21,169 nucleotides of DNA, taken from the IMG/VR virus record IMGVR_UViG_3300020474_000152, positions 1-21,169 of that record, one strand, 5' to 3'. The position numbers and the translations under genes are program-made. This document shows, piece by piece, positions 3,965-21,169 of this stretch. This DNA comes from a virus. Numbering within the stretch: the stretch's first letter is position 1; the number at the start of each line of letters is the position of its first letter. The notes under the pieces were generated by a model. It did no database searches. It was not told the origin of the DNA and saw nothing but the letters and a program-made list of their open reading frames with translations.

Positions 3965-6900
3965 ATGGCACCATTTATAGGATATTCAAACGAACTCGTA
4001 ATTGACTCAACTCAAGGTCAAGCTATAGCTGAATACTATAGTCCCGATGATATTGATCGTATAACGGTCACGTTCGGGTATTTAGAAGATCCTGCATTCG
4101 GCTTGAGTGATAGAGACAGGGTAGAACTTCACGTTTACGATATTAGTAAAAATCACTTATATTCTGATCATAAAATAGAAGGATGGGAAATAGGCTCTGA
4201 TACAGAAGGCAAACCAGTAATACATTTAAGAATTCGCGATGATTTGCGAAAGTTAGGGTTTACTAAAGGTGTATATAATATTGTATATAATTTTCATAGA
4301 GATGTAGTAGGTAAGAATATTGGACCTAAATTCTCTGTACATTCTATAAGCAATGACAGAAAAGAAATACGTTTAGTGCCTATGATACCGGAAGATAGTA
4401 TACCATATGCTGGACCTGAATTAGAAGATTTTTACGAAGCTTTCCAGCAACTAAAAGGTTCTTCTGGTGTAACAGGACCATTTATAGGACCTTCAGTATC
4501 TAATAATACTTTATGGTCTCAAATGCATATTAACTTCGGATACAATTATACTCCTTTAGCAGCTGCATGGGTAGTTAATGATGTTTATCCACCCGATCCA
4601 TTGTTTCCTAATACAATATTACTAAAACTGTATACAAAAGTACCACCAAATATACAAGCAAAAGATAGGTGCTGGTTAGTTGCAGAAGCAGCTCAACCTG
4701 TAATTAATAGATGTATGATTGATGAACCAATCTTACAACCGGGTAACATGATGGCCAATCCTAACTTTGACTTATGCCTAGATACTACCCCGAGAGTTCA
4801 TCTAGATCATAAAACTCAATCTGAGATATTAGGAAGTGAATCTGATTTAGCAAACGAATTAGTAAATGCATATTCATCAAGCGCTGCAGGAATAAAATTA
4901 AATGTAGATTATTCTATATTTGAAAATTATGTACACTTTAGTTCAGTTAAAGAAAGGTTAGAGAATTTTGTATATAAATTAAAATTAATTAATGGATATG
5001 ATACGCGAGCTCGAGATTTCGATTATAGTGAATTTTCATCTCAAGACGTGTATATATACGAATATACTGGATCGCACGGCTCAATACATACGAAAAGGTA
5101 TCAACGAAGGTGGGTTAATAAAAAGCTTGATTTAATAAATAATTTTGATGATTGGGAAAAATGGCTCTATTTTGATAGTGGTTCTAAAGCTAAATATATA
5201 ACTACTACTGGATCGAGAGGTGGTCACGAATATGATTGGTCACGTTCAGCTATAACCCCATTCCCTAAACTATCAGGTTCTTACAAAAACGATTTATGGT
5301 CTGAAGATTATTTAGAGTGGAGTGTCGATCAACTATTTGATTGGGCAGTTCACAGTATTTTTATTCCTGGACCGAATTATGAATTATTACATTTAACCTC
5401 TTCTAAATCATCAAATTGGTTATCAGCGGCGAGAGCATCTGCAAGTGCATATGATAAATGGAACCCTAATATATTACGGAAGACAGTACCAGAATATTTA
5501 AGTGATATAGGGGCAGCTCAAAACGAAACATATCTGAGATTTGTAGATATGGTTGGGCAAGCTCACGATATTCCATGGACTTACACAAGAGCATTTACAG
5601 AAAAAGCGGATAGACTGCATAATGAACATTATGAAAATAAGCGGGGTATGTCTGATGATATTATATACCATGTAGGAAAAGCTGCAGGTATAGAATTAGT
5701 AGATGGTGATCCAAACCAAACTCTTTGGGAATATAAATTAGGTAAAGATTCTGAAGGATTTATAAAACAGAATGCACCTACGGCATCTATAAGAACTATG
5801 CCAGCTAAACAACGAACAAGAGAGGTATGGAGACGTATACTAAATAATTTACCTTTATTATTAAAATCGAAAGGTACTCGAACAGGAGTTCGTGGATTAA
5901 TAAATTGCTACGGAGTACCAGAAGAAGTTCTTCCAATATATGAATATGGTTCTAGTAAGCGAAGTGATCAAACAACACTATACGAAGAACAAAATTTTAA
6001 GTACTGCTTAAACTTTCATCAAAGTCAATCAGTATCTACTTACTGGGGACCACATCAACTTTCAGCTGGGCGGATAACATCTAGTGCAGTAACCCCTAAC
6101 GCTGTAGAATTTAGAGTTTACCCTAATCCTAATACAGCAGCTTATACACAATCTTTATGGCAAGTAAATAATAGGGCAGGTATACGATTACATAGAAGCT
6201 ATAGTAGTGCAGTTAAACTCAACGGTCAACCAGAAGCGTTTACAGAGTACGGACATTTTAGTTTAATACTTTCAAGCTCTCAAGGCTATGTATCTGCATC
6301 AACAGGCAAAGCTAAAATATTTCAAGAAAGTAATGAGAGAAAATCTGGTGAAGGTTGGTGGACAGTATTACTAAATCGAGTACCTAATAATAAAAAACAA
6401 ACACCTTACGGAGCATATCATAGTGCGAGTATGTTTAATTATACATTGACATGCGTTCGAGCTGAGTACGGTACTGTAGATCAAGCAGTTTCATGTAGTT
6501 TTCCAGTAACTGGAGCAACTAATTATCACTCTGCATCAATGAATCAAGCTTACTCTGGAAGCCTTGAATCTGGAATAAAAGCTTACTTAGGTGGGTATGT
6601 AACTACGAGTGGCAATTATTATGGTTCTCAAAATCATAAACTATTTGGAGATGCATTTAGTGGGTCAATGCAAGAGTTAAGATATTATGCATGCGCTCTA
6701 TCACACTCAGTTTTAGTTGATCATACTCTCGCACCAGAAATGTATTCATCTAATAACCCTCTAACTACACATTCTGATTTATTAGTTAGATTAAAGTTAA
6801 GTGAAAGATTAAATCATTATAGTGGTAGTGTACAATCACCATCATCTTCTCAACATATTATAAACTTATCTCCTGATCAAGAATCATCAAGCTTAAATTA

Positions 6901-8389
6901 CAATAAAACTAATTTTGTAACTTATGGTGTAGCAAATAACTATCCATCGACCTTTCCATATGCATTTACTGAAGAACGATATTATATCGATACACCGGAA
7001 TTAGGTCCAAACAATTATACAAGTGATAAGTTTAGAAGAGAAGAGAATAGACTAGTAAGAAACCTAAGCCCGTTCGGTCGTGCTGAAAAGCCTAGCGGTG
7101 AAAAATACGCTTTAGATAGTAATGAATTAGGTGTATACTTCTCACCGACAGATCAAGTAAATAAAGATATATTTAATTCAATAGGTGGAGAGCAGCTAGA
7201 TGATTATATAGGGGATCCGAGAGATAAATTTAGAACATTCTATCCAGATTTAGATATTCTAAATAACGCATATTGGAAAAAGTATAAAAAAGAAAATAAT
7301 AAAAACACTTATTTGGAGCAGCTTAGGTTATATGATATGTCATTATTTACAATGATAAAGCAATTCTTACCTGCTAGAGCTAATGCTGATGTGGGTGTTG
7401 TAATTGAGCCGCATTTTATAGAGCGCTCTAAAGTTATACCTCCAGGTAGAATGAAAATTACAGGTGACACTAAACAACAGAATATAGCTAGAAATGCTGG
7501 CTCTTTTAGACGATTCCGACAAATGACTACACCTGCGCAGACGACACAACCGCAACAGACAACTACTGGTTTTGTACTCCAACCACAAACATGGACATCT
7601 ACAATAGGTAAGCCAAATAAACCGCCGGTAGGTTCACCTAAAGTGTTTGGATTAAAAGGCTCTATATCAGCATATCCTCTAAATTCAATTCTTAAAAGCT
7701 TTACTGGAAAGATACAAGCTCTTGCAATGGTAACTTCATCATCACCTAATAAATTAACTATTGATGGTACAATAGGAGGTTCTTCTGATCCATTAATTAG
7801 ATTATCAGATGAAACGGTTAAATCAGCTGGAATAGGTATAGACAGAATAGTACAGAAAAAGGGTAGTGAAGTAATGTCACATACATCTATAACAAGCTCT
7901 AATACTCAAATAGAAGGTACAATTAACGTTGCAGCTAACATTTCTGAATCTAGATATAAATACAAAACGCTACCTAGTCGTTCTAATGGATATGTTGAAG
8001 AGACATCTGAATTTGATCTTAAATTTGAGCCGACTACTTCATTTGTAGGGTCATTTAAGAAGTCAGAATTTAGACAGACGACTAAATATTTTTATAATGG
8101 AAATGCAGAAAGTGCTTCTAGAGGAAAACTTTATGAAACAGGAGGTAGTGTTAACTTATTTGCTACTAGTAAATCACGACAAGCAGCAGAAGTTAATGAT
8201 TATAATTTAGATGGAATAGAAGGATTATTTAGAATGAAATATAAAGGTACACAGATTAAGGGAGGAGACTTCAATATTGATAGTTCTGAGACACCAGATG
8301 GTGGCCCAGTTGTATCATTTACGTTTGGAGATCCAAATCAGCTAATAACAACTGACCCTACTTTTGGAGGTACTGTAGATATTCATTAG
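3965..8389 (+). CDS. Giant virion structural protein with concanavalin/LamG-like domain
   Basis: This 1474-residue protein is among the largest in the window. The N-terminal approximately 130 residues look like a compact beta domain. Around residues 627-660 is a helical motif (LLLKSKGTRTGVRGLINCYG, then VPEEVLPIYEYG) that I associate with tail or baseplate proteins of large phages. Residues about 700-915 look like a LamG/concanavalin-type jelly roll, ending in SGSMQELRYYA (899-909), the closing motif also seen twice in the gene at 10450. A Gln/Thr/Pro-rich linker lies near 1183-1205 and a beta-rich tail follows. The ATG at 3965 comes 6 bases after the previous stop, with no strong ribosome binding site. 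It is probably a baseplate-peripheral or tail appendage protein. Its size and Ser/Tyr/Asn-rich makeup fit this; the precise homologue in T4 is not evident. Confidence 0.65.
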   Translation: MAPFIGYSNELVIDSTQGQAIAEYYSPDDIDRITVTFGYLEDPAFGLSDRDRVELHVYDISKNHLYSDHKIEGWEIGSDTEGKPVIHLRIRDDLRKLGFTKGVYNIVYNFHRDVVGKNIGPKFSVHSISNDRKEIRLVPMIPEDSIPYAGPELEDFYEAFQQLKGSSGVTGPFIGPSVSNNTLWSQMHINFGYNYTPLAAAWVVNDVYPPDPLFPNTILLKLYTKVPPNIQAKDRCWLVAEAAQPVINRCMIDEPILQPGNMMANPNFDLCLDTTPRVHLDHKTQSEILGSESDLANELVNAYSSSAAGIKLNVDYSIFENYVHFSSVKERLENFVYKLKLINGYDTRARDFDYSEFSSQDVYIYEYTGSHGSIHTKRYQRRWVNKKLDLINNFDDWEKWLYFDSGSKAKYITTTGSRGGHEYDWSRSAITPFPKLSGSYKNDLWSEDYLEWSVDQLFDWAVHSIFIPGPNYELLHLTSSKSSNWLSAARASASAYDKWNPNILRKTVPEYLSDIGAAQNETYLRFVDMVGQAHDIPWTYTRAFTEKADRLHNEHYENKRGMSDDIIYHVGKAAGIELVDGDPNQTLWEYKLGKDSEGFIKQNAPTASIRTMPAKQRTREVWRRILNNLPLLLKSKGTRTGVRGLINCYGVPEEVLPIYEYGSSKRSDQTTLYEEQNFKYCLNFHQSQSVSTYWGPHQLSAGRITSSAVTPNAVEFRVYPNPNTAAYTQSLWQVNNRAGIRLHRSYSSAVKLNGQPEAFTEYGHFSLILSSSQGYVSASTGKAKIFQESNERKSGEGWWTVLLNRVPNNKKQTPYGAYHSASMFNYTLTCVRAEYGTVDQAVSCSFPVTGATNYHSASMNQAYSGSLESGIKAYLGGYVTTSGNYYGSQNHKLFGDAFSGSMQELRYYACALSHSVLVDHTLAPEMYSSNNPLTTHSDLLVRLKLSERLNHYSGSVQSPSSSQHIINLSPDQESSSLNYNKTNFVTYGVANNYPSTFPYAFTEERYYIDTPELGPNNYTSDKFRREENRLVRNLSPFGRAEKPSGEKYALDSNELGVYFSPTDQVNKDIFNSIGGEQLDDYIGDPRDKFRTFYPDLDILNNAYWKKYKKENNKNTYLEQLRLYDMSLFTMIKQFLPARANADVGVVIEPHFIERSKVIPPGRMKITGDTKQQNIARNAGSFRRFRQMTTPAQTTQPQQTTTGFVLQPQTWTSTIGKPNKPPVGSPKVFGLKGSISAYPLNSILKSFTGKIQALAMVTSSSPNKLTIDGTIGGSSDPLIRLSDETVKSAGIGIDRIVQKKGSEVMSHTSITSSNTQIEGTINVAANISESRYKYKTLPSRSNGYVEETSEFDLKFEPTTSFVGSFKKSEFRQTTKYFYNGNAESASRGKLYETGGSVNLFATSKSRQAAEVNDYNLDGIEGLFRMKYKGTQIKGGDFNIDSSETPDGGPVVSFTFGDPNQLITTDPTFGGTVDIH

Positions 8390-10449: not shown

Positions 10450-13400
10450 ATGTCAGTATTCAAAAAAATAGATTCTAATGATGTTAATATCACATCTTTT
10501 GATGTGCATAAGAAATACACCATTACACCAGACAATTATTCTGGAAGTAATGGCTACGGAGTACATATATTAGCAGCTCATTATAGGTCCAGCAGCTTTG
10601 CAGATCCGATTAACGGTGGAACTAATATTGATGAAGAAGATACTAATCCTAATGGTACATACAGAACTATTATCTATGATAGTATTAATCATTTATACTA
10701 TACACGAGAAGATAACCCAGGCGAAACATTTGGAGGCCATCTTCCAGAAAAACAAGATAGATTTTTAGGACAAGATGCGCATGTAATATCTATACCATCA
10801 CCATTATATGACTTAAAAATAAAAACTGGTTCTGTTAGAATATTAGATCATTATGTTGATTCTTTTGATATAACAAAGCAAAAAGCATTAAGTGGTAGTT
10901 CTTCATCTCCAAGATACTCTGCATCAATGGCAAGTGACGAGACAGTATATATATCAACTCCTATGCTTGCTAATCACTATAAATTTATAAATTCTGAAAG
11001 TAAGTTTACATGTAACGAAGGCGGGAGTAGCTTGACAGATGCTCGTACCTCTGAAATATCGAGAGTATACGTAGTAACTAAATCAGATAACTGGAATGAT
11101 ATGTCCCAGTCTTTAGATGGTCCTATAGCTGGTACGGGAAGTCTACATATGATAGTAGATGCATACGATACAATTGCTGGAAAACATTTTAATAAAGGTA
11201 ATGGACTACTGCTTCGGCAATCAGGTCAGTTTCAAGGTACATTAAATGACGATTGGTGGCAAGGTAATAGCACTAATTTCGAATCAGGAATGCCAGCATA
11301 TACAATAACTATGTGGATTAAGCCACCAGACTGGAATAAGATGCCTAATAAAGTAACAGGCGCTCCAGGAAGAAGTACTATTCTAACTCGAGATAAAAAC
11401 GCATACTTTGAACTACAAATGATAACTAGTTCATATCAGACTAATAATCCAAAAGGGTTATTACCACTACAGATGTTCTGGGGCGCAACTGGAAGTAACT
11501 GCACAACCTCAGCTTCTCAAGATGCTATATCAACTGGTTTAGCTCTTGCAACCGGTTCTTGGAATCTAGTAACAATACAGCAAGAATTCTGGCCAGGAGA
11601 TGCAGATATGGGAACTTCTGGGTCAGCAGGTCCTGGAGGATCAGAAACAGAGAATGATGAACAATTACCATCATGGGGACACTCACCAGCTAAAACAACG
11701 TTAAGAATATATAGACCTGACCCAGTAGCATCTCATTCATTTACATATTCAAAATTTGTTGGATATGCAACTAAGTCATTACACGTATCAGGAACTTCTG
11801 GAGCTGGTAGTGGTATACCAGTTTTAGATGGAGGAGCAGAAAATTTAGATTTTCCTTGGTGGCATAACCAAAATAATTTTTGGGTTACATCAAGTAATCA
11901 ATACGCTAGAAATCTTTATATAGGAGCTTCTGGTTCAGTAGCAGCAGGTGCAGCAAATAATAACGCTACATCTATGACGACGTACGAAGCCATTACAGGT
12001 TCAATTGATGATGTAAGATTTTATGAATCAGTATTAACTGATACACAAATTGCGCTACTATGGGAATATCCTTGGATGGATTTACGGAGAACACCTCCAG
12101 TAACTGCTTCATTTGATTTAAGAGATGATTCATTTGGTAATATAATAGATACTGGGATAGTATCTTCTTCATTTGTAACACAAAGTAGGTTAGTTGGGTA
12201 TTATGGATTTAACGAACAGTTTCTTATAGACAATGAGACAAGTGCATCATCTGATATACTATTACATAGAGGCTATGGTAAAGCGCATGTTGAAGATGGT
12301 AGTAAACATGAAAATACAGGAACTTCAGATAAAGTAACATTTATACCAGGTATAACAGTCACGGTACAGAGTGGTTCAGTCTATTCAGCTGATGCACTAA
12401 ACTTTTATCATACTAATGTACATTCAGGAATAGCAGCACGGTTTAACAATAGCGGTAGTATACGAATACCACATAAAGATCACCTTAATTTGAATAGCGA
12501 GGACGGATGGGCAATTAGTTTTTGGGTAAGGATACCAGAAGCACAAATACCAGGAGTTAATACAATAACTGGTTCAGATGCATATCTAACAACTGGAGAA
12601 ACTAACTCCATCGGGATGAATAACGGGACAGGTAATGCAGGAGGTACTAGCAAGCCTTGCGTCAGACATTATTCAGGTTCTACTGCTGGTAGAGATTATG
12701 TAACTTTAATTACCAAATCTGGGCTTGGAACTAAAAAAACTATAAATTCAGCAGACGGAGCTATTATTACATCTGAAACAACTGAAGGAATGGAAAGAGC
12801 TTATCCATATAAAATTCAATTAAAAAACACATCACTAGAAAAGGATGGAAAACCTTTTGGATTAGGTGGTAATTGTAATAATGGATTAGGAGCTCAATTA
12901 AATACTATTGTGGTGCGTAGAAGTGATGGTCAAGGGCATTTACTTTTAGAATCTAAAACTGCATTAACACCTTTAATAGATAATCATGTTGTAGTTACTA
13001 AAAACGGAACCACTTTACAAATATGGATAAATGGAAACTTAGACACAGATATTCAAGACAAACTAAACTGTACAGATAATATTTCAGATTTATTTTTTGG
13101 AGATGAAGGACAAGCATGGGCAACTGGATCAGATATAGGAAAAAATACTCCTTACCCTATCAACCCGTTTAGTGGTTCATTAGATGAAATAAGATTTTAC
13201 GATACAAAATTAGGAGAGAGCGAAGTACTATCATTATATGATAATAGTTTTACTAACGGAACAGCTTATCAGCAAAATATTGTAGGTAATGTATTTTACG
13301 AGCAAGGTATAAATACAATAACGAGCACACAATATCCTAGATACTTTTCTGGATCACTCCATACAGGAACTGCTTATGTAGGTAATCCTGAAAAAGCTTT

Positions 13401-13719
13401 CTTTAGCGAAAACTTTAATTATATATTTAGAAACACGCGACGAATATATGAGCACAAATATAAGTGTTTAACAAAAGCATCTGATTTTAATTTACCAACA
13501 AATCCGACTTTACGTAAAACGACTAAAGATGGTTGTGAAAATGTTCTATCTATACAAGAATTACACGATAATTACTATCATCAAGCATTTACACCATATG
13601 TAACGACAATTGGATTGTATGATGATTATGGTAGATTATTAGCAATTGGTAAGTTAGCACGTCCAATTAAAAAAATGAAAAACGTAGATACAACGTTTGT
13701 AATAAGGTTTGATACATAA
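10450..13719 (+). CDS. Large virion structural protein with two LamG/concanavalin-like domains
   Basis: This 1089-residue protein has an N-terminal part (residues about 70-133) with SINHLYY (78-84) and VISIPSPLYDLKIKTGSV (112-129), a pattern I recall from virion proteins of T4-like phages. Two jelly-roll domains follow, at about 246-540 and 659-930. Each has a core strand (YTITMWIKPPDW near 283, WAISFWVRIPE near 687) and the closing motif GSIDDVRFYE (517-526) or GSLDEIRFYD (909-918). LamG-type folds commonly bind carbohydrate or protein. The C-terminal 42 residues (1048-1089, TPYVTTIGLYDDYGRLLAIG at their start) are homologous to the end of the preceding gene product. The gene follows a terminator, so it may start its own transcription unit. 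It is likely an exposed baseplate or fibre component. The binding role is inferred. Confidence 0.65.
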   Translation: MSVFKKIDSNDVNITSFDVHKKYTITPDNYSGSNGYGVHILAAHYRSSSFADPINGGTNIDEEDTNPNGTYRTIIYDSINHLYYTREDNPGETFGGHLPEKQDRFLGQDAHVISIPSPLYDLKIKTGSVRILDHYVDSFDITKQKALSGSSSSPRYSASMASDETVYISTPMLANHYKFINSESKFTCNEGGSSLTDARTSEISRVYVVTKSDNWNDMSQSLDGPIAGTGSLHMIVDAYDTIAGKHFNKGNGLLLRQSGQFQGTLNDDWWQGNSTNFESGMPAYTITMWIKPPDWNKMPNKVTGAPGRSTILTRDKNAYFELQMITSSYQTNNPKGLLPLQMFWGATGSNCTTSASQDAISTGLALATGSWNLVTIQQEFWPGDADMGTSGSAGPGGSETENDEQLPSWGHSPAKTTLRIYRPDPVASHSFTYSKFVGYATKSLHVSGTSGAGSGIPVLDGGAENLDFPWWHNQNNFWVTSSNQYARNLYIGASGSVAAGAANNNATSMTTYEAITGSIDDVRFYESVLTDTQIALLWEYPWMDLRRTPPVTASFDLRDDSFGNIIDTGIVSSSFVTQSRLVGYYGFNEQFLIDNETSASSDILLHRGYGKAHVEDGSKHENTGTSDKVTFIPGITVTVQSGSVYSADALNFYHTNVHSGIAARFNNSGSIRIPHKDHLNLNSEDGWAISFWVRIPEAQIPGVNTITGSDAYLTTGETNSIGMNNGTGNAGGTSKPCVRHYSGSTAGRDYVTLITKSGLGTKKTINSADGAIITSETTEGMERAYPYKIQLKNTSLEKDGKPFGLGGNCNNGLGAQLNTIVVRRSDGQGHLLLESKTALTPLIDNHVVVTKNGTTLQIWINGNLDTDIQDKLNCTDNISDLFFGDEGQAWATGSDIGKNTPYPINPFSGSLDEIRFYDTKLGESEVLSLYDNSFTNGTAYQQNIVGNVFYEQGINTITSTQYPRYFSGSLHTGTAYVGNPEKAFFSENFNYIFRNTRRIYEHKYKCLTKASDFNLPTNPTLRKTTKDGCENVLSIQELHDNYYHQAFTPYVTTIGLYDDYGRLLAIGKLARPIKKMKNVDTTFVIRFDT

Positions 13720-13745: not shown

Positions 13746-14156
13746 ATGGCTAGAAAAATTTCAAAAGCAAGAGCAAATGCTATAAAGCATGGTTATCGAA
13801 GCGGATTCGAACATAAAGTTTCAGAGCAACTAAATGAAGCTAAAATTAAATTCGAATACGAAAAAACTGTAATTTCATACATAAAACCAGAAACCAATCA
13901 TACATATACAATTGACTTCACTTTACCTAACGGTATATTAGTTGAGACAAAAGGTCGTTGGGTTCTTGAAGATCGTAAAAAACATTTACTTATAAAAAAC
14001 CAGCATCCTGAATTAGATATCAGATTAGTATTTCAAAACTCCAAAGGTAAAATAAGAAAAGGTTCTAAAACAACATACGCAGATTTTTGTGATAAGAACG
14101 AAATTATTTGGGCCGATAAAACTATTCCTACTTCTTGGTACAACGAAAAAAAATAA
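13746..14156 (+). CDS. T7 endonuclease I-like Holliday junction resolvase
   Basis: This 136-residue protein resembles phage T7 gene 3 endonuclease I (149 residues) along almost its whole length. Shared blocks include FRSGLE-like YRSGFEHKVSEQL (17-29), KFEYE (35-39), NHTYTIDFTLPNGILVETKG (51-70), DRKKHLLIKNQHPELDIRLV (76-95) and the C-terminal segment (WADKTIPTSWY). The catalytic residues of the T7 enzyme (Glu20, Asp55, Glu65, Lys67) are all kept, here as E22, D57, E67 and K69. The family is a domain-swapped dimer that cuts four-way junctions and other branched DNA, clearing branches before packaging. The start ATG at 13746 has no strong ribosome binding site. The primase gene follows 41 bases after its stop. 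In a T4-like setting this gene may replace endonuclease VII (gp49), but only the rest of the genome can show that. Confidence 0.93.
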   Translation: MARKISKARANAIKHGYRSGFEHKVSEQLNEAKIKFEYEKTVISYIKPETNHTYTIDFTLPNGILVETKGRWVLEDRKKHLLIKNQHPELDIRLVFQNSKGKIRKGSKTTYADFCDKNEIIWADKTIPTSWYNEKK

Positions 14157-14197
14157 AATAACGTTTGTTATTAGCAATTATTTTCGTATATTATTAT

Positions 14198-15118
14198 ATG
14201 CTTAAAAAACTCCAAACACTACTCGAGTCTTTATTAAATAGAGGTAGGACATTGCAAAATGATGAAATATCATTTCATTGCCCGTGCTGCAATCACTATA
14301 AAAAGAAGCTGCAGGTAAACCTTAGAACACAGATGTGGCAGTGCTGGGTATGTGGTATAAAGGGTAGAAGTATATATCATTTATTTAAGAAACTTAAAGC
14401 TTCGAAAATGCATTTCGAAAAGCTTCAAGAGTTTTCTGATTATGTACCTATAAAATCTAAAAAGAAAACTTATGACGACTTATCATTACCAGCTGAATTC
14501 AAGACTTTCTTGAATGTAGAAAAAGGTAATCCAGAATTTCATAATGCATTAGGATATTTAAGAAAACGAGGGTTAACACGAGAAGATATCTTAAGATATA
14601 ATATAGGATACTGTGAATCAGGTCCATATAATAAAATGGTAATAATACCGAGTTACAATAAAGACGGTATGTTAAACTTTTTTACAGGAAGATCATATTA
14701 TAAAGATGCATCATTTAAGCATAAGAATCCACAAGTATCAAAAGATGTTATAGGATTTGAATTATATATAAACTGGAACTTGCCTATAACTATAGTAGAA
14801 GGTGCATTTGATGCATTAGCTATTAAGCGAAACGCAATACCGTTATTTGGAAAAATAGTTTTAGAAAAATTAAAAAAAGCAGTTGTTGAAAACAGAGTTA
14901 AAAATATTAACATAGCGTTAGATAGAGATGCACGAGCAAAAGCTCTACAGTGCTGTGAGTATTTTATTAATAATGGAGTTACAGTTACGTTAGTCGATTT
15001 AGAAGAGCAAGATCCAAGTGACTTAGGATTTTCTAATATTACTAATATAATACAAAATAGTAACACACTAACACCATATCAGTTAATGGAACAAAAGATT
15101 AAGGAGAAGATGATTTGA
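14198..15118 (+). CDS. DNA primase, DnaG/T4 gp61-like
   Basis: From the ATG at 14198 this is 306 residues, close to T4 gp61 (342). A TTG at 14165 would add 11 hydrophobic residues that fit no primase; I prefer 14198, although neither has a clear ribosome binding site. The N-terminal zinc domain has four Cys as CxxC pairs (C28/C31 and C49/C52). The polymerase core begins with YLRKRGLTREDILRYNIGYC (120-139) and NKMVIIPSYNKDGMLNFFTG (145-164). A Toprim fold follows, with its first Glu in TIVEGAFDAL (E201) and the DRD pair in ALDRDARAKA (D242, D244). It makes RNA primers for lagging-strand synthesis, working with a replicative helicase not seen here. Its stop overlaps the next gene by 4 bases (TTGA), so the two are translationally coupled. 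Confidence 0.9.
   Translation: MLKKLQTLLESLLNRGRTLQNDEISFHCPCCNHYKKKLQVNLRTQMWQCWVCGIKGRSIYHLFKKLKASKMHFEKLQEFSDYVPIKSKKKTYDDLSLPAEFKTFLNVEKGNPEFHNALGYLRKRGLTREDILRYNIGYCESGPYNKMVIIPSYNKDGMLNFFTGRSYYKDASFKHKNPQVSKDVIGFELYINWNLPITIVEGAFDALAIKRNAIPLFGKIVLEKLKKAVVENRVKNINIALDRDARAKALQCCEYFINNGVTVTLVDLEEQDPSDLGFSNITNIIQNSNTLTPYQLMEQKIKEKMI
15102..15106 (+). promoter_or_regulatory. Ribosome binding site that fixes a TTG start
   Basis: AGGAG lies 8 bases before the TTG at 15115, inside the end of the primase gene. No ATG is available upstream of the first nuclease motif of the next gene, so this site decides its TTG start and couples the two genes. Confidence 0.75.
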
Positions 15119-18100
15119 ATAAGATAGATGTTGGATTTGAAAAAGTAGAATGTATAGCACATATAGCTGATGTGCATATTAGAAACTTAAGACGTCATAA
15201 AGAGTACAAGCAGGTATTTAGAAAGTTGTATAAAGACTTAAAAGATAATCTACCACAAAATTCTTTAATTTATTTAGCTGGTGATATAGCTCACGCTAAA
15301 ACAGAAATGAGTCCTGAGCTTATAGAAATGACTTCTGACTTGTTTACTAAATTAAGTAAAATAGCTCCAACTATTCTCATTGCTGGTAACCATGATTGTA
15401 ATCTAAATAATAAGAGTAGATTAGATGCACTATCACCAATAGTTGATTCATTGCATTTAGATGATTTTTACTACCTACGCGATAATGGGTTATATGAAAT
15501 AGGCGATTGTGTATTTAACGTAATGTCAGTATTTAACGATCCAGATGACTATATACTATCTAAAAATATAAATACAGATAAAACTAAAATAGCTTTATAT
15601 CATGGTTCAGTAGAAAGTGCAACAACAGATGTAGGATTCAAATTACCTGGTGAAGTTACTACTGATATATTTACAGGATACGATATGGTACTGTTAGGTG
15701 ATATTCATAAGCAACAATACCTTAACAAACAAAAAACAATTGCATATGCAGGTTCTCTAGTATGTCAGAATTGGGGAGAGCATCCGACTAATCATGGTTA
15801 TATAAAGTGGGACGCTCCAAAACGGAAGCCAGAATATAGAATTATAGAAAACGATTATGCTTATGTAACTCTTGAGGTTGAAAATGGTAAAATAGTAAAC
15901 GAGATACCATTACCTAAATATCCAAGAATGCGTATAAAAGTTTGTAAAACAGAAGAATCTCAACTAAAGAAAATTTTAGCAGAGATACGAAAAACATCTA
16001 AACTTAAAGATGTAGCTATAATTCGAACTGATAGGTTATCTGCTCAAAAAAGTGGTGATAGAAACGCAAAGGACGCTGGTATTGGAGATGTAAGAGATCC
16101 TAACTATCAAAATAGACTTATAGTAGATTATCTAGAACGTACTTTTGCTTTAGAAGATGATGTTATTAAAACAGTAAAAAAGATTAACAAAGACTTAAAT
16201 AGTAATATACCTCAGGTAGAAGTTTTTAGAAACTTAACATGGAAACCCATGAAGTTTCAGTTTAGTAATATGTTTAGTTACGGTAAAGGTAATTCAGTAG
16301 ATTTTTCAACTATGAAAGGAGCATATGGATTATTTGCTCCTAATGCATCAGGTAAATCAGCATTGCTAGATGCAGTAACATATTGTTTATTTGATAAGTG
16401 TAGTAGATCATCTCAAGCTAGGGATGTTATGAATAGTGAAAAAACCACGTTTCATTGTAAGTTGCATTTCCAAATAGATGGTCAAGATTATTTTATAGAG
16501 CGTAATGGTAGTAAAGGTCTCAAAGGATGGAAAGAAGGTAAGTATTCAGTTAAAGTAAATTTCTGGACGTTAGATGAAGAAGGTAATGAAGTTTCGTTAA
16601 ATGGTGAACATAGATATGATACTAACAAAATTATAAGTTCTTATGTTGGTCATTTCGAAGATTTTATTTTAACAGCCCTATCAGTTCAAAATAATAATAC
16701 TGGGTTTATTGATATGTCTCAGTTCGAAAGGAAAGATTTATTAGCACAATTTTTAGATATAAAGGTATTTGATGAATTATATCGTTCAGCTTTAGATGAG
16801 ATAAAAGATGTTCAAGCATTATTAAAAGATTTCAAAAAGAATGATTTCACTCAACAGCTAGCTGATGCTGAAACAGAGCTTGAAATAAAGCGTGAACGTA
16901 AACAAGAAGTAAAAAAGAACTCAACTTCTTTAGCCGGTAAAATTAAAACTTTAGATAAGCGTATTACAGCACTCCAATCTAAAATAATAGAATTAGAATC
17001 AGTCAATCAAGATATCGATTCTATGAATATTCAATATAAAAATTATAGCAAACAAATAGAAGCTATAAATGATAGACTATATTCAGATGAAAATATAGCT
17101 GAAGAAAATAAAGAAAAAATTCGTAAAGCTAATACTATATTAGAAGGTTACGATATTTCAGAGGTTGAAAACATATTTACATTACTTTGTGAACGAAAAG
17201 AAGAAGTAAAAGAATTAACAGCAGAACGGGATCGGATTAAGGTAGATGTTAAGTATAAGTTAGAAAAGCTAGAATCTACTAATAATCAATATGATCCTAA
17301 TTGTGAATTCTGTAAAGAGCGAGAGAGCGAATCTATAAAAATTGCAAATAAAACTAAAGCAAGTTTAGAGCAAGACAAGAAAAAAGCAGATATAGTAATG
17401 CAAAAAATTAAAGATTGTAATAGTTTCTTACTACAGAATGCTGATATAGAAATAGATTATAATAAAATTATTAAAATAAATAATTTATTAGCAACTATTG
17501 AAAAAGAAAGAAATGCAGGCAGGATAGCATATTACCAGGCTAGAGAAAAGCGTGACCAAATCCAACAATTGCAATATGAAATTGAATTAGATATTAAAAA
17601 ATATCATGAAAATAAAAAAGCAATTATTCATAATACAAAAACGACTGAACAAATAAGTGAGTTAAGTATTAAGATGGATGAGTTAACTGATGCTAAAGTT
17701 GGTATAGATGAAGAGTTTATGACACTTCATGGAGCCATCGAAGTTGCCTTATCTACTAAAAATAATATAACACAATCAATAAAAAAAGCAGAAGAATTAG
17801 AGCAAAAATTCAAAGCATATGAATACTACATAGATGCCATTCAGAGAGATGGTGTGCCATACGAACTAATTACAAAAGTAATACCGATAATAGAGGAAGA
17901 GGTTAATGATATATTAGCACAAATAGTTGATTTTAAGATAATGTTTGAATTAGATGGTAAAAATATTAACACTTATATTGTATACAGTGAAGAAAAAACT
18001 TGGCCGCTAGAGTTAACATCAGGTATGGAAAAATTTATATCTTCATTAGCTATTAGAACTGCTCTAGTTAATATATCTAATCTACCAAGACCTAACTTTC

Positions 18101-18291
18101 TAGCAATAGACGAAGGGTTAGGAAACCTAGATTCAGAAAATCTTAACTCATTATTTATGTTATTTACTTTCTTAAAATCACAGTTTGAACTGCTGATGAT
18201 AATAAGTCACCTAGATTCTGTCAGAGATGTAGTAGATAATCTAATAGATATAAAAAAAATATCAGGTTTCTCTAAAATTACCCATGAATAA
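15115..18291 (+). CDS. Fused Mre11/SbcD-like nuclease and Rad50/SbcC-like ATPase (gp47-gp46 in one chain)
   Basis: This 1058-residue protein carries both recombination subunits. Residues 1 to about 375 hold the Mre11-type phosphoesterase motifs: D19-V-H21, GDIAH (56-60), GNHD (91-94), YHGS with H163, GDIH (195-198), and the YAGSL block (211-215). Residues about 376-1058 hold the Rad50-type ATPase: Walker A NASGKS (410-415), Q-loop Q525, a coiled coil with a CEFC zinc hook (C730, C733), a TSGME signature (968-972), Walker B LAIDEG (997-1001 region, D999, E1000), D-loop NLD (1004-1006) and H-loop H1032. All key residues are kept, so both halves should be active. In T4, gp47 (339) and gp46 (560) are separate and trim DNA ends for recombination-dependent replication and repair. 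The TTG start is backed by AGGAG. Met379 could allow a separate ATPase, but no ribosome binding site precedes it. Confidence 0.93.
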   Translation: MNKIDVGFEKVECIAHIADVHIRNLRRHKEYKQVFRKLYKDLKDNLPQNSLIYLAGDIAHAKTEMSPELIEMTSDLFTKLSKIAPTILIAGNHDCNLNNKSRLDALSPIVDSLHLDDFYYLRDNGLYEIGDCVFNVMSVFNDPDDYILSKNINTDKTKIALYHGSVESATTDVGFKLPGEVTTDIFTGYDMVLLGDIHKQQYLNKQKTIAYAGSLVCQNWGEHPTNHGYIKWDAPKRKPEYRIIENDYAYVTLEVENGKIVNEIPLPKYPRMRIKVCKTEESQLKKILAEIRKTSKLKDVAIIRTDRLSAQKSGDRNAKDAGIGDVRDPNYQNRLIVDYLERTFALEDDVIKTVKKINKDLNSNIPQVEVFRNLTWKPMKFQFSNMFSYGKGNSVDFSTMKGAYGLFAPNASGKSALLDAVTYCLFDKCSRSSQARDVMNSEKTTFHCKLHFQIDGQDYFIERNGSKGLKGWKEGKYSVKVNFWTLDEEGNEVSLNGEHRYDTNKIISSYVGHFEDFILTALSVQNNNTGFIDMSQFERKDLLAQFLDIKVFDELYRSALDEIKDVQALLKDFKKNDFTQQLADAETELEIKRERKQEVKKNSTSLAGKIKTLDKRITALQSKIIELESVNQDIDSMNIQYKNYSKQIEAINDRLYSDENIAEENKEKIRKANTILEGYDISEVENIFTLLCERKEEVKELTAERDRIKVDVKYKLEKLESTNNQYDPNCEFCKERESESIKIANKTKASLEQDKKKADIVMQKIKDCNSFLLQNADIEIDYNKIIKINNLLATIEKERNAGRIAYYQAREKRDQIQQLQYEIELDIKKYHENKKAIIHNTKTTEQISELSIKMDELTDAKVGIDEEFMTLHGAIEVALSTKNNITQSIKKAEELEQKFKAYEYYIDAIQRDGVPYELITKVIPIIEEEVNDILAQIVDFKIMFELDGKNINTYIVYSEEKTWPLELTSGMEKFISSLAIRTALVNISNLPRPNFLAIDEGLGNLDSENLNSLFMLFTFLKSQFELLMIISHLDSVRDVVDNLIDIKKISGFSKITHE

Positions 18292-18296
18292 TTTTA

Positions 18297-18343
18297 TGCC
18301 ATACTTATTTATATAAGGTAATATAAGTAAAAGACGTATGGCA
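18297..18343 (+). promoter_or_regulatory. Inverted repeat enclosing the tail-fibre gene start
   Basis: TGCCATAC (18297-18304) is exactly complementary to GTATGGCA (18336-18343), with 31 bases between. The second arm contains the ATG (18338-18340). Within the loop, CTTAT and ATAAG can also pair weakly. If the RNA folds, the start codon would be hidden and translation could be reduced. There is no T-tract after it, so it is not a normal terminator. Eight pairs over this span could occur by chance. Confidence 0.4.
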
Positions 18344-21169
18344 CAAAATATAGTAAACACATATCCTGCTCCTGGTGGCGGTAAGGAGATACGTAGGTAC
18401 ACCGTAGCTATCCCTAAAGATCTTTTAGGAATGGACATCCTGTTGAACGATTCTTCAGATTTCAGTCCATACTACTTCGGTGTAGTTCGGAAACCAGCTA
18501 AATTAAAATTAGGTGGTAATATCTTTGAATTTCTACCACAACCTAATCGATTCGTCCCTGGCACTCAAATACTATTTGAAGCAGTTGATAGTCAACGGAA
18601 ACAAATACCGTATGAGATTATAGCTAAAGGTCACGGAGGAGCTATACGAGTATGTATATGGATAGACGATAAAACACCAGTAGGTCAAGCTAGTATTTCT
18701 TTAGTAGGAGAGGTAGCATTAGACGATTGTGGATGTCCAGTCCCAGATGAATGGAAAGGAATACCTAATGTTAGGTGGTCAGATATCATTCATGTAGATG
18801 ATACAGATATATCTGATACAATTGAATATGTAGTTGCTCCATGGGCAATAATTGATGAATTATCCATACCGTGGCAATATCAAACGTACGAAGATATTAC
18901 TAATATAAACCCAGGATCCCCTGGTTCACCTTATACCGTTTCAGGCTCATATATATCAACTTATAATTCACAGCCTACAGGGAGCGGAACAGGAAAAGTA
19001 AATTATACGCTAACTCAGACACCAGATACTCAAAGCGTTGGAAAAGGTACTATTCAAGTATTTTTTGGAGATTTAAGATTTTCCGCTAGTATGGTTGGTG
19101 GTAATATGTATGTCTCTGGAGGGATAGGGCATATACATGGTCTTAACCCGTATCCAGTTCCAGCTGGTCGATATAATGTACCTCCATACTATGCAACTAT
19201 TAGTGCGGTAATAAATGAAACTACAGCAGAAGTTGAACCTGCATATCAAGTTCAAGGAATAGGGGATATTCAATCATATTACCCAACTGCATTTCATACT
19301 AAAAATGGTCATAGACATACATGGACTGAAACAAGTAATTCAATATCATTTACCGATCCAACCGCACCAAGTTCAAGTATTACTCGAAAATTCTTAACTG
19401 AAGAATTAGCAATTTCATATGCAGATATTGAGTTATTTGATCTAAAACCACATTGTGGTGTAGCAACCTTTCTAGACGTTTATTCAAAGAGTGAACGATA
19501 CTCAGGTAATGAAACTAAAATGGCTATGGTAGCTATCGAGCCTTTCAACTTCCTTATAGACGAAGTCACATCTATGGGTCAAAAAGTGTTTGCTAAACCT
19601 ATAGGTGATTTTGCAAATAATCACGAAAATACTTTATACTGGGATATAAACGGAAATAATGAAAGCTCTCCTCCTACTGCAGTACATGGAAATTCAGCGT
19701 TAATGAATTCGATTAAAGTTGATGGAGCTGGATTAGGTAATGGAAAGCATGCTGTTTATAGCCATAAATCTACGTACAATCCTAGCTTATATAAAGGTAC
19801 AGATTATTTTATAGAATTTGATGCAGTATCAGAAAAAGCTAATGATGTAAAACCTGTCCTAGACGTCTTTATGTCAGGTAGTGGTATTTTTCCAACTAAC
19901 ACACAAAATGCTACTGAAAAAGCTTTCGGACAGCATGTAGGTACTTTAACTAATAATGGAAATTCATATCAACAATGGTTAGGTAATTCTTTTGAATATT
20001 ATCAAGAATACAGCGGTAAAGCGAATTTACGCTTTGTGGTAAGGTCAGGTACTTGGCATATAAAAGGTGTTAAGTTAATGAATTGTCCAGGTGAGATAGA
20101 TGAAACAGGTATAACACCAAATCATACACGCCTTTTAATACCTATGCCAACTTTAGCAGTAGCAGGTGATTGTTACGACTTTACACTGCGATATGCAAAC
20201 AAAGACCGAACAGCTGAGCCAGAATTCAAAACTAGTGCTTGTATAATGTTCGATGGGACTGATCCAGGTCCTATTATGGAATCACATGGAGGTGATGGAG
20301 ATTGGTTTATTGGACAGCATGTACTAACTTCATCTAGAGATGTTTGGATATCAGGCTCATTAACTGTAAGTGGTACTATTCGAGCAGATGAATTTTACAC
20401 TAATATAGTTTCTAAATCAATATCTCAAATAATCGTATCAGGTTCAACTAGATTTGGTGATAATTGTGCAGATGTTCACGTATTTACTGGCTCTATCAAA
20501 CAGCATTGTGGGGATATAAATGGTGGTGGTGATTTAACTATACGAAATATTACTGCTTCCAACAACATAACTGCTTCAACTTTAATTGCAAACAGTGCGA
20601 GTATCCCAAACATATATACTTATGCATTAACTTCTTCATATATATCTAACTCATATAATATAACTACTAACAACTTTACATCTTCTTTTGGTAACGTCAC
20701 ACACCTTACTGCATCACTATCAGGAGCTCTACAAGGAAGAGGTTCCACTATACATGCTACTGGATCAATAGAAGGTACTGCAAGTTATGGTAGAGATAAT
20801 GACTGGTACGCTCAAGGTCAAACGTATGTAGGAGGGCTAGGAGGAATAGATCCTGTTATTGACGGTCAAATATATCATAGCGGATCAGTAGGTATAGGAG
20901 ATTATTACAATAATCCTATACCAAGTAAACTAACTGTTGATGGTGATATAAGTTCAAGTGGATTTGTTTCAGCAACAGATATGACAGCCTCAGGTGATAT
21001 AAGCGCAAGTGGAACTGTATATGTTAAAGGTTCATCAACTAGTGGAGTATATGTAAATAACGAACATGCCCTAGGAACAAGTACTACTGTAACAGAAGGA
21101 GCTGTATTTGGAGCAACAAGTTGGACAGCAATCCATATTGGAAGAGATGGAACAAATAGTAAAAATATA
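18338..21169 (+). CDS. Large tail fibre-type virion protein (3' end missing)
   Basis: From the ATG at 18338 the frame stays open for 944 codons to the window edge. The N terminus (MAQNIVNTYPAPGGGKEIRR) leads into beta-rich domains with a CGCP motif near residue 131. A His/Tyr/Pro-rich section lies around 260-275. From about 665 the composition becomes Ser/Gly/Thr-rich with fibre-like repeats: SGSLTVSGTIRADEF (about 672), then GDNCADVHVFTGSI (about 707), a GSVGIG...KLTVDG segment (about 852-868), and a near 17-residue repeat, GDISSSG (869-875) and GDISASG (886-892). The GxVGIG...KLxVxG pattern is common in long fibres of phages and bacterial surface proteins, and such genes often end in an S74-type intramolecular chaperone. 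That end would be outside the window. The start has no good ribosome binding site and lies in an inverted repeat. Receptor binding is inferred, not shown. Confidence 0.7.
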   Translation, partial: MAQNIVNTYPAPGGGKEIRRYTVAIPKDLLGMDILLNDSSDFSPYYFGVVRKPAKLKLGGNIFEFLPQPNRFVPGTQILFEAVDSQRKQIPYEIIAKGHGGAIRVCIWIDDKTPVGQASISLVGEVALDDCGCPVPDEWKGIPNVRWSDIIHVDDTDISDTIEYVVAPWAIIDELSIPWQYQTYEDITNINPGSPGSPYTVSGSYISTYNSQPTGSGTGKVNYTLTQTPDTQSVGKGTIQVFFGDLRFSASMVGGNMYVSGGIGHIHGLNPYPVPAGRYNVPPYYATISAVINETTAEVEPAYQVQGIGDIQSYYPTAFHTKNGHRHTWTETSNSISFTDPTAPSSSITRKFLTEELAISYADIELFDLKPHCGVATFLDVYSKSERYSGNETKMAMVAIEPFNFLIDEVTSMGQKVFAKPIGDFANNHENTLYWDINGNNESSPPTAVHGNSALMNSIKVDGAGLGNGKHAVYSHKSTYNPSLYKGTDYFIEFDAVSEKANDVKPVLDVFMSGSGIFPTNTQNATEKAFGQHVGTLTNNGNSYQQWLGNSFEYYQEYSGKANLRFVVRSGTWHIKGVKLMNCPGEIDETGITPNHTRLLIPMPTLAVAGDCYDFTLRYANKDRTAEPEFKTSACIMFDGTDPGPIMESHGGDGDWFIGQHVLTSSRDVWISGSLTVSGTIRADEFYTNIVSKSISQIIVSGSTRFGDNCADVHVFTGSIKQHCGDINGGGDLTIRNITASNNITASTLIANSASIPNIYTYALTSSYISNSYNITTNNFTSSFGNVTHLTASLSGALQGRGSTIHATGSIEGTASYGRDNDWYAQGQTYVGGLGGIDPVIDGQIYHSGSVGIGDYYNNPIPSKLTVDGDISSSGFVSATDMTASGDISASGTVYVKGSSTSGVYVNNEHALGTSTTVTEGAVFGATSWTAIHIGRDGTNSKNI
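20942..21013 (+). repeat. Tandem-like 17-codon repeat in the fibre gene
   Basis: Two 21-base copies, at 20942-20962 and 20993-21013, match at 19 positions and are 51 bases apart, which keeps frame. They encode GDISSSG and GDISASG. This is consistent with a repeated strand in a fibre shaft. More copies may lie beyond the window edge. Confidence 0.6.

Follow-up and report, generated by a model that had tools for sequence, protein, structure and literature searches.

A single-chain Mre11-Rad50 protein encoded directly behind a primase gene in an IMG/VR virus contig

The canonical complex of Mre11 (SbcD) and Rad50 (SbcC) has a 2:2 composition. Fusions of the two proteins have been described for mimivirus (R555), for Bacillus phage 0305phi8-36, for five bacteria, in some of which they reside on plasmids, and for six eukaryotes (Yoshida, Claverie and Ogata 2011, PMC3175470). 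The same work argued that many R555-like sequences from the Global Ocean Sampling (GOS) are viral, their neighbors being phage primases and T7-gp3-like endonucleases, and it reported two substitutions in R555, namely, a His that ends the GDxxD motif and an Asp that replaces His206 of Pyrococcus furiosus, together with a linker of about 9 to 12 residues between the helix-loop-helix (HLH) and the Rad50 N terminus in fusions of this type (PMC3175470). The protein that we analyze here is not new in kind, since both its type and its neighbors were described in 2011 (PMC3175470). The possible novelty of phage fusions, raised in a preliminary description of this DNA, does not stand, given that report and the several isolated phages considered below, though the biochemical side of the description mostly holds.

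The stretch of DNA analyzed, hereafter called the window, is a 21,169-base IMG/VR virus contig from a marine phage. On its plus strand, positions 15115 to 18291 hold 1,058 codons without a stop and encode a fused Mre11-Rad50 (SbcD-SbcC) protein of 1,058 aa with both halves in one frame. The gene begins with a TTG start codon, 8 nt downstream of a Shine-Dalgarno-like AAGGAG (about 15101 to 15106; motif and start codon together, 15100 to 15117, plus strand), and this start overlaps by 4 nt the stop of the primase gene that precedes it. Pfam detected Metallophos at residues 14 to 199 (E 2.5e-10) and AAA_23 at residues 383 to 624 (E 7.9e-12) in the one protein, whereas PHROGs matched residues 336 to 1057 to an SbcC-like family. 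Pfam, a 36-sequence alignment, and an AlphaFold2 (AF2) model all agree with the preliminary description that a single open frame of 1,058 residues holds the nuclease and ATPase parts, and the fusion of a complete Mre11/SbcD nuclease with a complete Rad50/SbcC ATPase is real.

The AF2 model was built on the 36-sequence alignment for one chain, and this monomer has a mean pLDDT of 80.8 and a pTM of 0.49. All the following features lie on the plus strand. Residues 1 to 243 (15115 to 15843) form the calcineurin-like nuclease domain, with D19, H21, D57, N92 to D94, H163, D196, and H198, as supported by Pfam Metallophos, by AF2, and by VIA-align to 7dog. They are followed by the Mre11 capping domain at residues 248 to 304 (15856 to 16026), identified from AF2 secondary structure and from the match to the SbcD nuclease and capping domains. 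Two AF2 helices (329 to 343 and 348 to 364) make up a region at residues 329 to 364 (16099 to 16206) which, by its position, would correspond to the Rad50-binding HLH of Mre11. The helices end at 364 and the first Rad50 strand begins at 375, leaving a linker of about 10 residues (365 to 374; 16207 to 16236) that is neither helix nor strand in the model. The Rad50 N-lobe spans residues 375 to 546 (16237 to 16752; Pfam AAA_23, VIA-align to 7yzo_D) and carries Walker A up to GKS 413 to 415, the coiled coil spans residues 551 to 909 (16765 to 17841; AF2 helices) and carries the CxxC hook C730/C733, both Cys of which are invariant, and the C-lobe spans residues 914 to 1058 (17854 to 18288; alignment, AF2, and VIA-align) and carries the signature SGME 969 to 972, Walker B D999/E1000, and H1032. 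The residues singled out earlier from the letters alone are all where they had been placed, both in the nuclease (D19, H21, GDIAH 56 to 60, GNHD 91 to 94, H163, and GDIH 195 to 198) and in the ATPase (Walker A to K414/S415, C730/C733, TSGME 968 to 972, D999/E1000, and H1032). In the 36-sequence alignment, D19, D57, N92, H93, D94, H163, D196, H198, K414, S415, C730, and C733 are invariant, and H21, S969 to E972, D999, E1000, and H1032 are conserved in at least 90%. The protein therefore contains the motif set of Mre11-Rad50/SbcCD nucleases, with a D-for-H substitution at position 196, and an ABC head with Walker A, signature, and Walker B, along with the coiled coil and its hook. Structural alignment with VIA-align matched residues 376 to 1058 to Escherichia coli SbcC (7yzo_D; Z 30.8, 352 residues aligned, rmsd 3.3) and residues 12 to 305 to Staphylococcus aureus SbcD (7dog_B; Z 24.4, 276 residues aligned, rmsd 3.8).

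With the R555 type, the window protein shares the order Mre11 then Rad50 in one chain, a linker of matching length, and both substitutions, GDxxH appearing as GDIAH and the Asp for the first His of GHxH as GDIH. Neither motif is fully diagnostic when taken alone, since GDxxH also occurs in the split phage proteins of P108 and Stubb, and GDLH is found in the T5-like Stubb, whereas T4, S-N03, P108, and a Moorella phage have GHxH. The primase and the T7-gp3-like endonuclease found next to phage-like GOS members of the R555 type are also the neighbors in the window, but the GOS scaffolds are partial while the window fusion is full length and comes with its gene context. R555, from a giant virus, has 1,351 aa versus 1,058 aa for the protein of this probable myophage, so that the coiled coil of the latter, judging from length, is probably shorter than that of R555. 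A Foldseek search of BFVD returned full-length giant-virus proteins as the best matches, the first being a Tupanvirus DNA repair protein (27% identity, 1,319 columns).

Fusions encoded by a single CDS are also present in the isolated phages Mel-JY01, Sphingomonas PAU, Tenacibaculum PTm1 and pT24, and Chryseobacterium MA9V-1, where they are mostly labeled just "metallo-phosphoesterase." The protein of Microcystis phage Mel-JY01 (WWT39521; PP395634.1), whose sole annotation is "AAA domain containing protein," is 40% identical over 99% and is encoded by a single 1,066-aa CDS with a primase nearby upstream, while a GIY-YIG gene occupies the place that endonuclease I has in the window. The jumbo-phage fusions (PAU gp288, PTm1 ORF-075, pT24, and MA9V-1) likewise have the nuclease before the ATPase in a single CDS, but they are longer (1,301 to 1,326 aa), have DxQ as the first motif, and lack GDxxH, and those of pT24 and PTm1 are about 14 to 16% identical to the window fusion in structural alignments; so they would be either a distant branch or the product of a separate fusion.

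T4 gp47/gp46 and the phage SbcD/SbcC pairs have the same domains in the same order as the window fusion and presumably the same role. In T4, however, these are two chains of 339 and 560 aa, with two small genes lying between their genes, and the signature is the canonical GDxxD/GHxH instead of GDxxH/GDIH. E. coli SbcCD and archaeal Mre11-Rad50 share folds and motifs with the window protein at about 16 to 20% identity in structural alignments, but they consist of two subunits. A tree of the Rad50 head, calculated from phage proteins only (14 fused, 5 split), separates fused from split proteins with support 99/97, placing T4 and the split phage pairs on the other side from the fusions, and the Mre11 tree does not resolve fused versus split (67/9), long branches limiting both. 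The preliminary description had taken the gene order, that of T4 genes 47 then 46, as a sign of a simple gene fusion; the order is real, but direct derivation from T4 gp47/46 is not supported by the Rad50-head tree or by the motifs.

Directly upstream of the fusion, positions 14165 to 15118 (plus strand) encode a DnaG-like primase (Toprim, MG010-like), which immediately precedes the fusion in 106 of the 107 loci with enough DNA. Further upstream, positions 13746 to 14156 (plus strand) encode a T7-gp3-like endonuclease I of the Holliday-junction resolvase family (Pfam Phage_endo_I, E 8.3e-57), present in 65 of 101 related loci. Together with these genes, the fusion makes up a conserved [T7 endonuclease I]-primase-fusion cassette. 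Baseplate wedge homology at positions 38 to 1525 of the window points to a probable myophage. Three window open reading frames at 10450 to 13719, 3965 to 8389, and 18338 to 21169 (1,089, 1,474, and >944 aa) are, by their position, likely to encode virion or tail proteins; searches in PHROGs (all three), Pfam (two), and NCBIfam (one) gave no match.

We consider it very likely that the protein is a single-chain Mre11-Rad50 of the R555 type, which would act as a homodimeric MR end-processing nuclease in recombination-dependent phage replication, a role proposed from the gene neighborhood and from analogy to T4. We know of no biochemistry for the window protein or for any R555-type fusion. Two chains would dimerize via their nuclease domains, and the ATPase heads would also dimerize upon ATP binding, giving the usual M2R2 head, in which each nuclease would be tethered to a head by the short linker that follows the HLH. 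The enzyme would resect or open DNA ends of the phage chromosome, from which a phage RecA/UvsX could start recombination-dependent replication, with the cassette primase priming lagging strands and, in the many relatives that have it, the endonuclease I resolvase resolving junctions. Degradation of host DNA, as by T4 gp46/47, would be a possible second role. Since the canonical complex has a 2:2 composition anyway, the fusion leaves the 1:1 ratio unchanged, and the earlier claim that it forces this stoichiometry does not describe a change; what it may add is guaranteed coexpression and assembly.

No RecA gene was identified in the window, a 21-kb fragment. Six large records of 115 to 190 kb, the complete Mel-JY01 genome among them, contain one RecA/UvsX homologue each, and therefore a recombinase is available. 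They also contain one AAA_23 match each, within the fusion frame, and in this search no second, split copy of Rad50 was seen; it seems, therefore, that the fusion stands in for the two-gene form. The record G003 has two additional frames for phosphoesterases (219 and 247 aa). These data also bear on the idea of a defense, antidefense, or host-DNA-degrading nuclease instead of an end-processing replication enzyme, an idea favored by the annotation of T4 gp46/47 as needed both for recombination and for the degradation of host DNA and by Foldseek matches that include SMC-like folds of the defense systems JetABC and Lamassu. We deem it unlikely, since the best solved-structure matches, SbcCD and Mre11-Rad50, rank above Lamassu and Jet, the linkage to the primase is conserved, and the six large records contain no AAA_23 match besides the fusion and each encode a RecA.

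At least 574 relatives were confirmed in IMG/VR, where successive searches yielded 30 and then 80 loci. Among the fetched loci, counting the window and Mel-JY01, 92 have the complete protein in a single frame, corresponding to 84 distinct viral or metagenome-assembled genome (MAG) sequences after removal of repeats, and in 20 the fusion is truncated by the contig end. None of the fetched loci is split into two adjacent genes, a result valid for the fusion clade only, because the hits were picked by similarity to a fused query, which favors fused relatives. The exceptions to a complete single frame are three: the contig start cuts L036, an insertion interrupts L033, and L015 is frameshifted near residue 575. 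Between close relatives (84 to 92% identity), dN/dS is 0.01 to 0.16 in all six segments of the fusion and 0.02 to 0.16 at the junction (residues 346 to 378), where dS could be estimated, indicating that purifying selection acts on every domain, junction included.

Translation might also start inside the gene, near residue 379, and give a separate Rad50 subunit besides the fused chain, as Met379 of the window coincides with the position of the N terminus of free Rad50 proteins. Such a start is highly improbable, given that in 57 of 85 distinct sequences the 30 residues ahead of the ATPase core do not include a Met and that none of the Mets present in this stretch in the 85 sequences has a Shine-Dalgarno-like sequence; with the Met not conserved and such a signal missing, the single chain is the likely product. 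That the fusion is an artifact of assembly or sequencing, made from two separate genes, has virtually no chance of being true, since, even if the L015 frameshift indicates that contigs can contain errors, the junction is read through in one frame in 84 distinct relatives from many metagenomes and in isolated phages, its dN/dS is low, and the independent contigs, by staying open across it, also exclude a missed stop.

The fusion is very common in aquatic phages. It is quite possible, if a little short of probable, that its carriers form a large clade of aquatic myophages, most of them uncultured, which has the fused form only and keeps it in a recombination-replication cassette of fixed makeup, with a dedicated primase and, in many cases, endonuclease I, that the linker forces each nuclease to pair in cis with its own head, and that this clade, instead of the giant viruses, is the main reservoir of the R555 type. 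Being full length and having their gene context, the phage members support the suspicion of 2011 that the abundant ocean reads resembling mimivirus R555 are largely phage. Knowledge of MR complexes is unchanged by this finding. A single-chain MR enzyme, whose nuclease cannot come apart from its ATPase, would therefore lend itself to structural studies and single-molecule experiments. In a scan of genome contigs, two MAG contigs were found to carry the fusion, one of which is likely to be misbinned phage DNA. The 11.4-kb contig L035 (CALBOT010000005.1), from a "Candidatus Nitrosopelagicus" MAG, has the same endonuclease I-primase-fusion cassette and is probably phage DNA binned with the archaeon.

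Some variants were observed. In the 484-kb phage L033 (LR756508.1), the fused gene is interrupted at 6598 to 7662 by about 1.06 kb right after the catalytic GDIHKRQ. The insert holds a 305-aa open reading frame whose product has zinc-finger-like repeats rich in Cys as well as a TnsA-like endonuclease domain (PF08722, E 5.8e-6); the insert is not an intein, since there is no continuous frame, a search of Rfam gave no match to a group I intron, and it is possibly an intron or a homing-type insertion. Seven loci (L057, L059, L062, L080, L082, L095, and L111) have DxQ instead of DxH as the first nuclease motif (ISDIQIRN), as also seen in the distant fusions of PAU, PTm1, pT24, and MA9V-1. Finally, a 1,009-aa "recombination exonuclease" of Listeria phage LMTA-57 (BFVD A0A068CB47) matches the fused model along 1,145 columns and is possibly another phage fusion.
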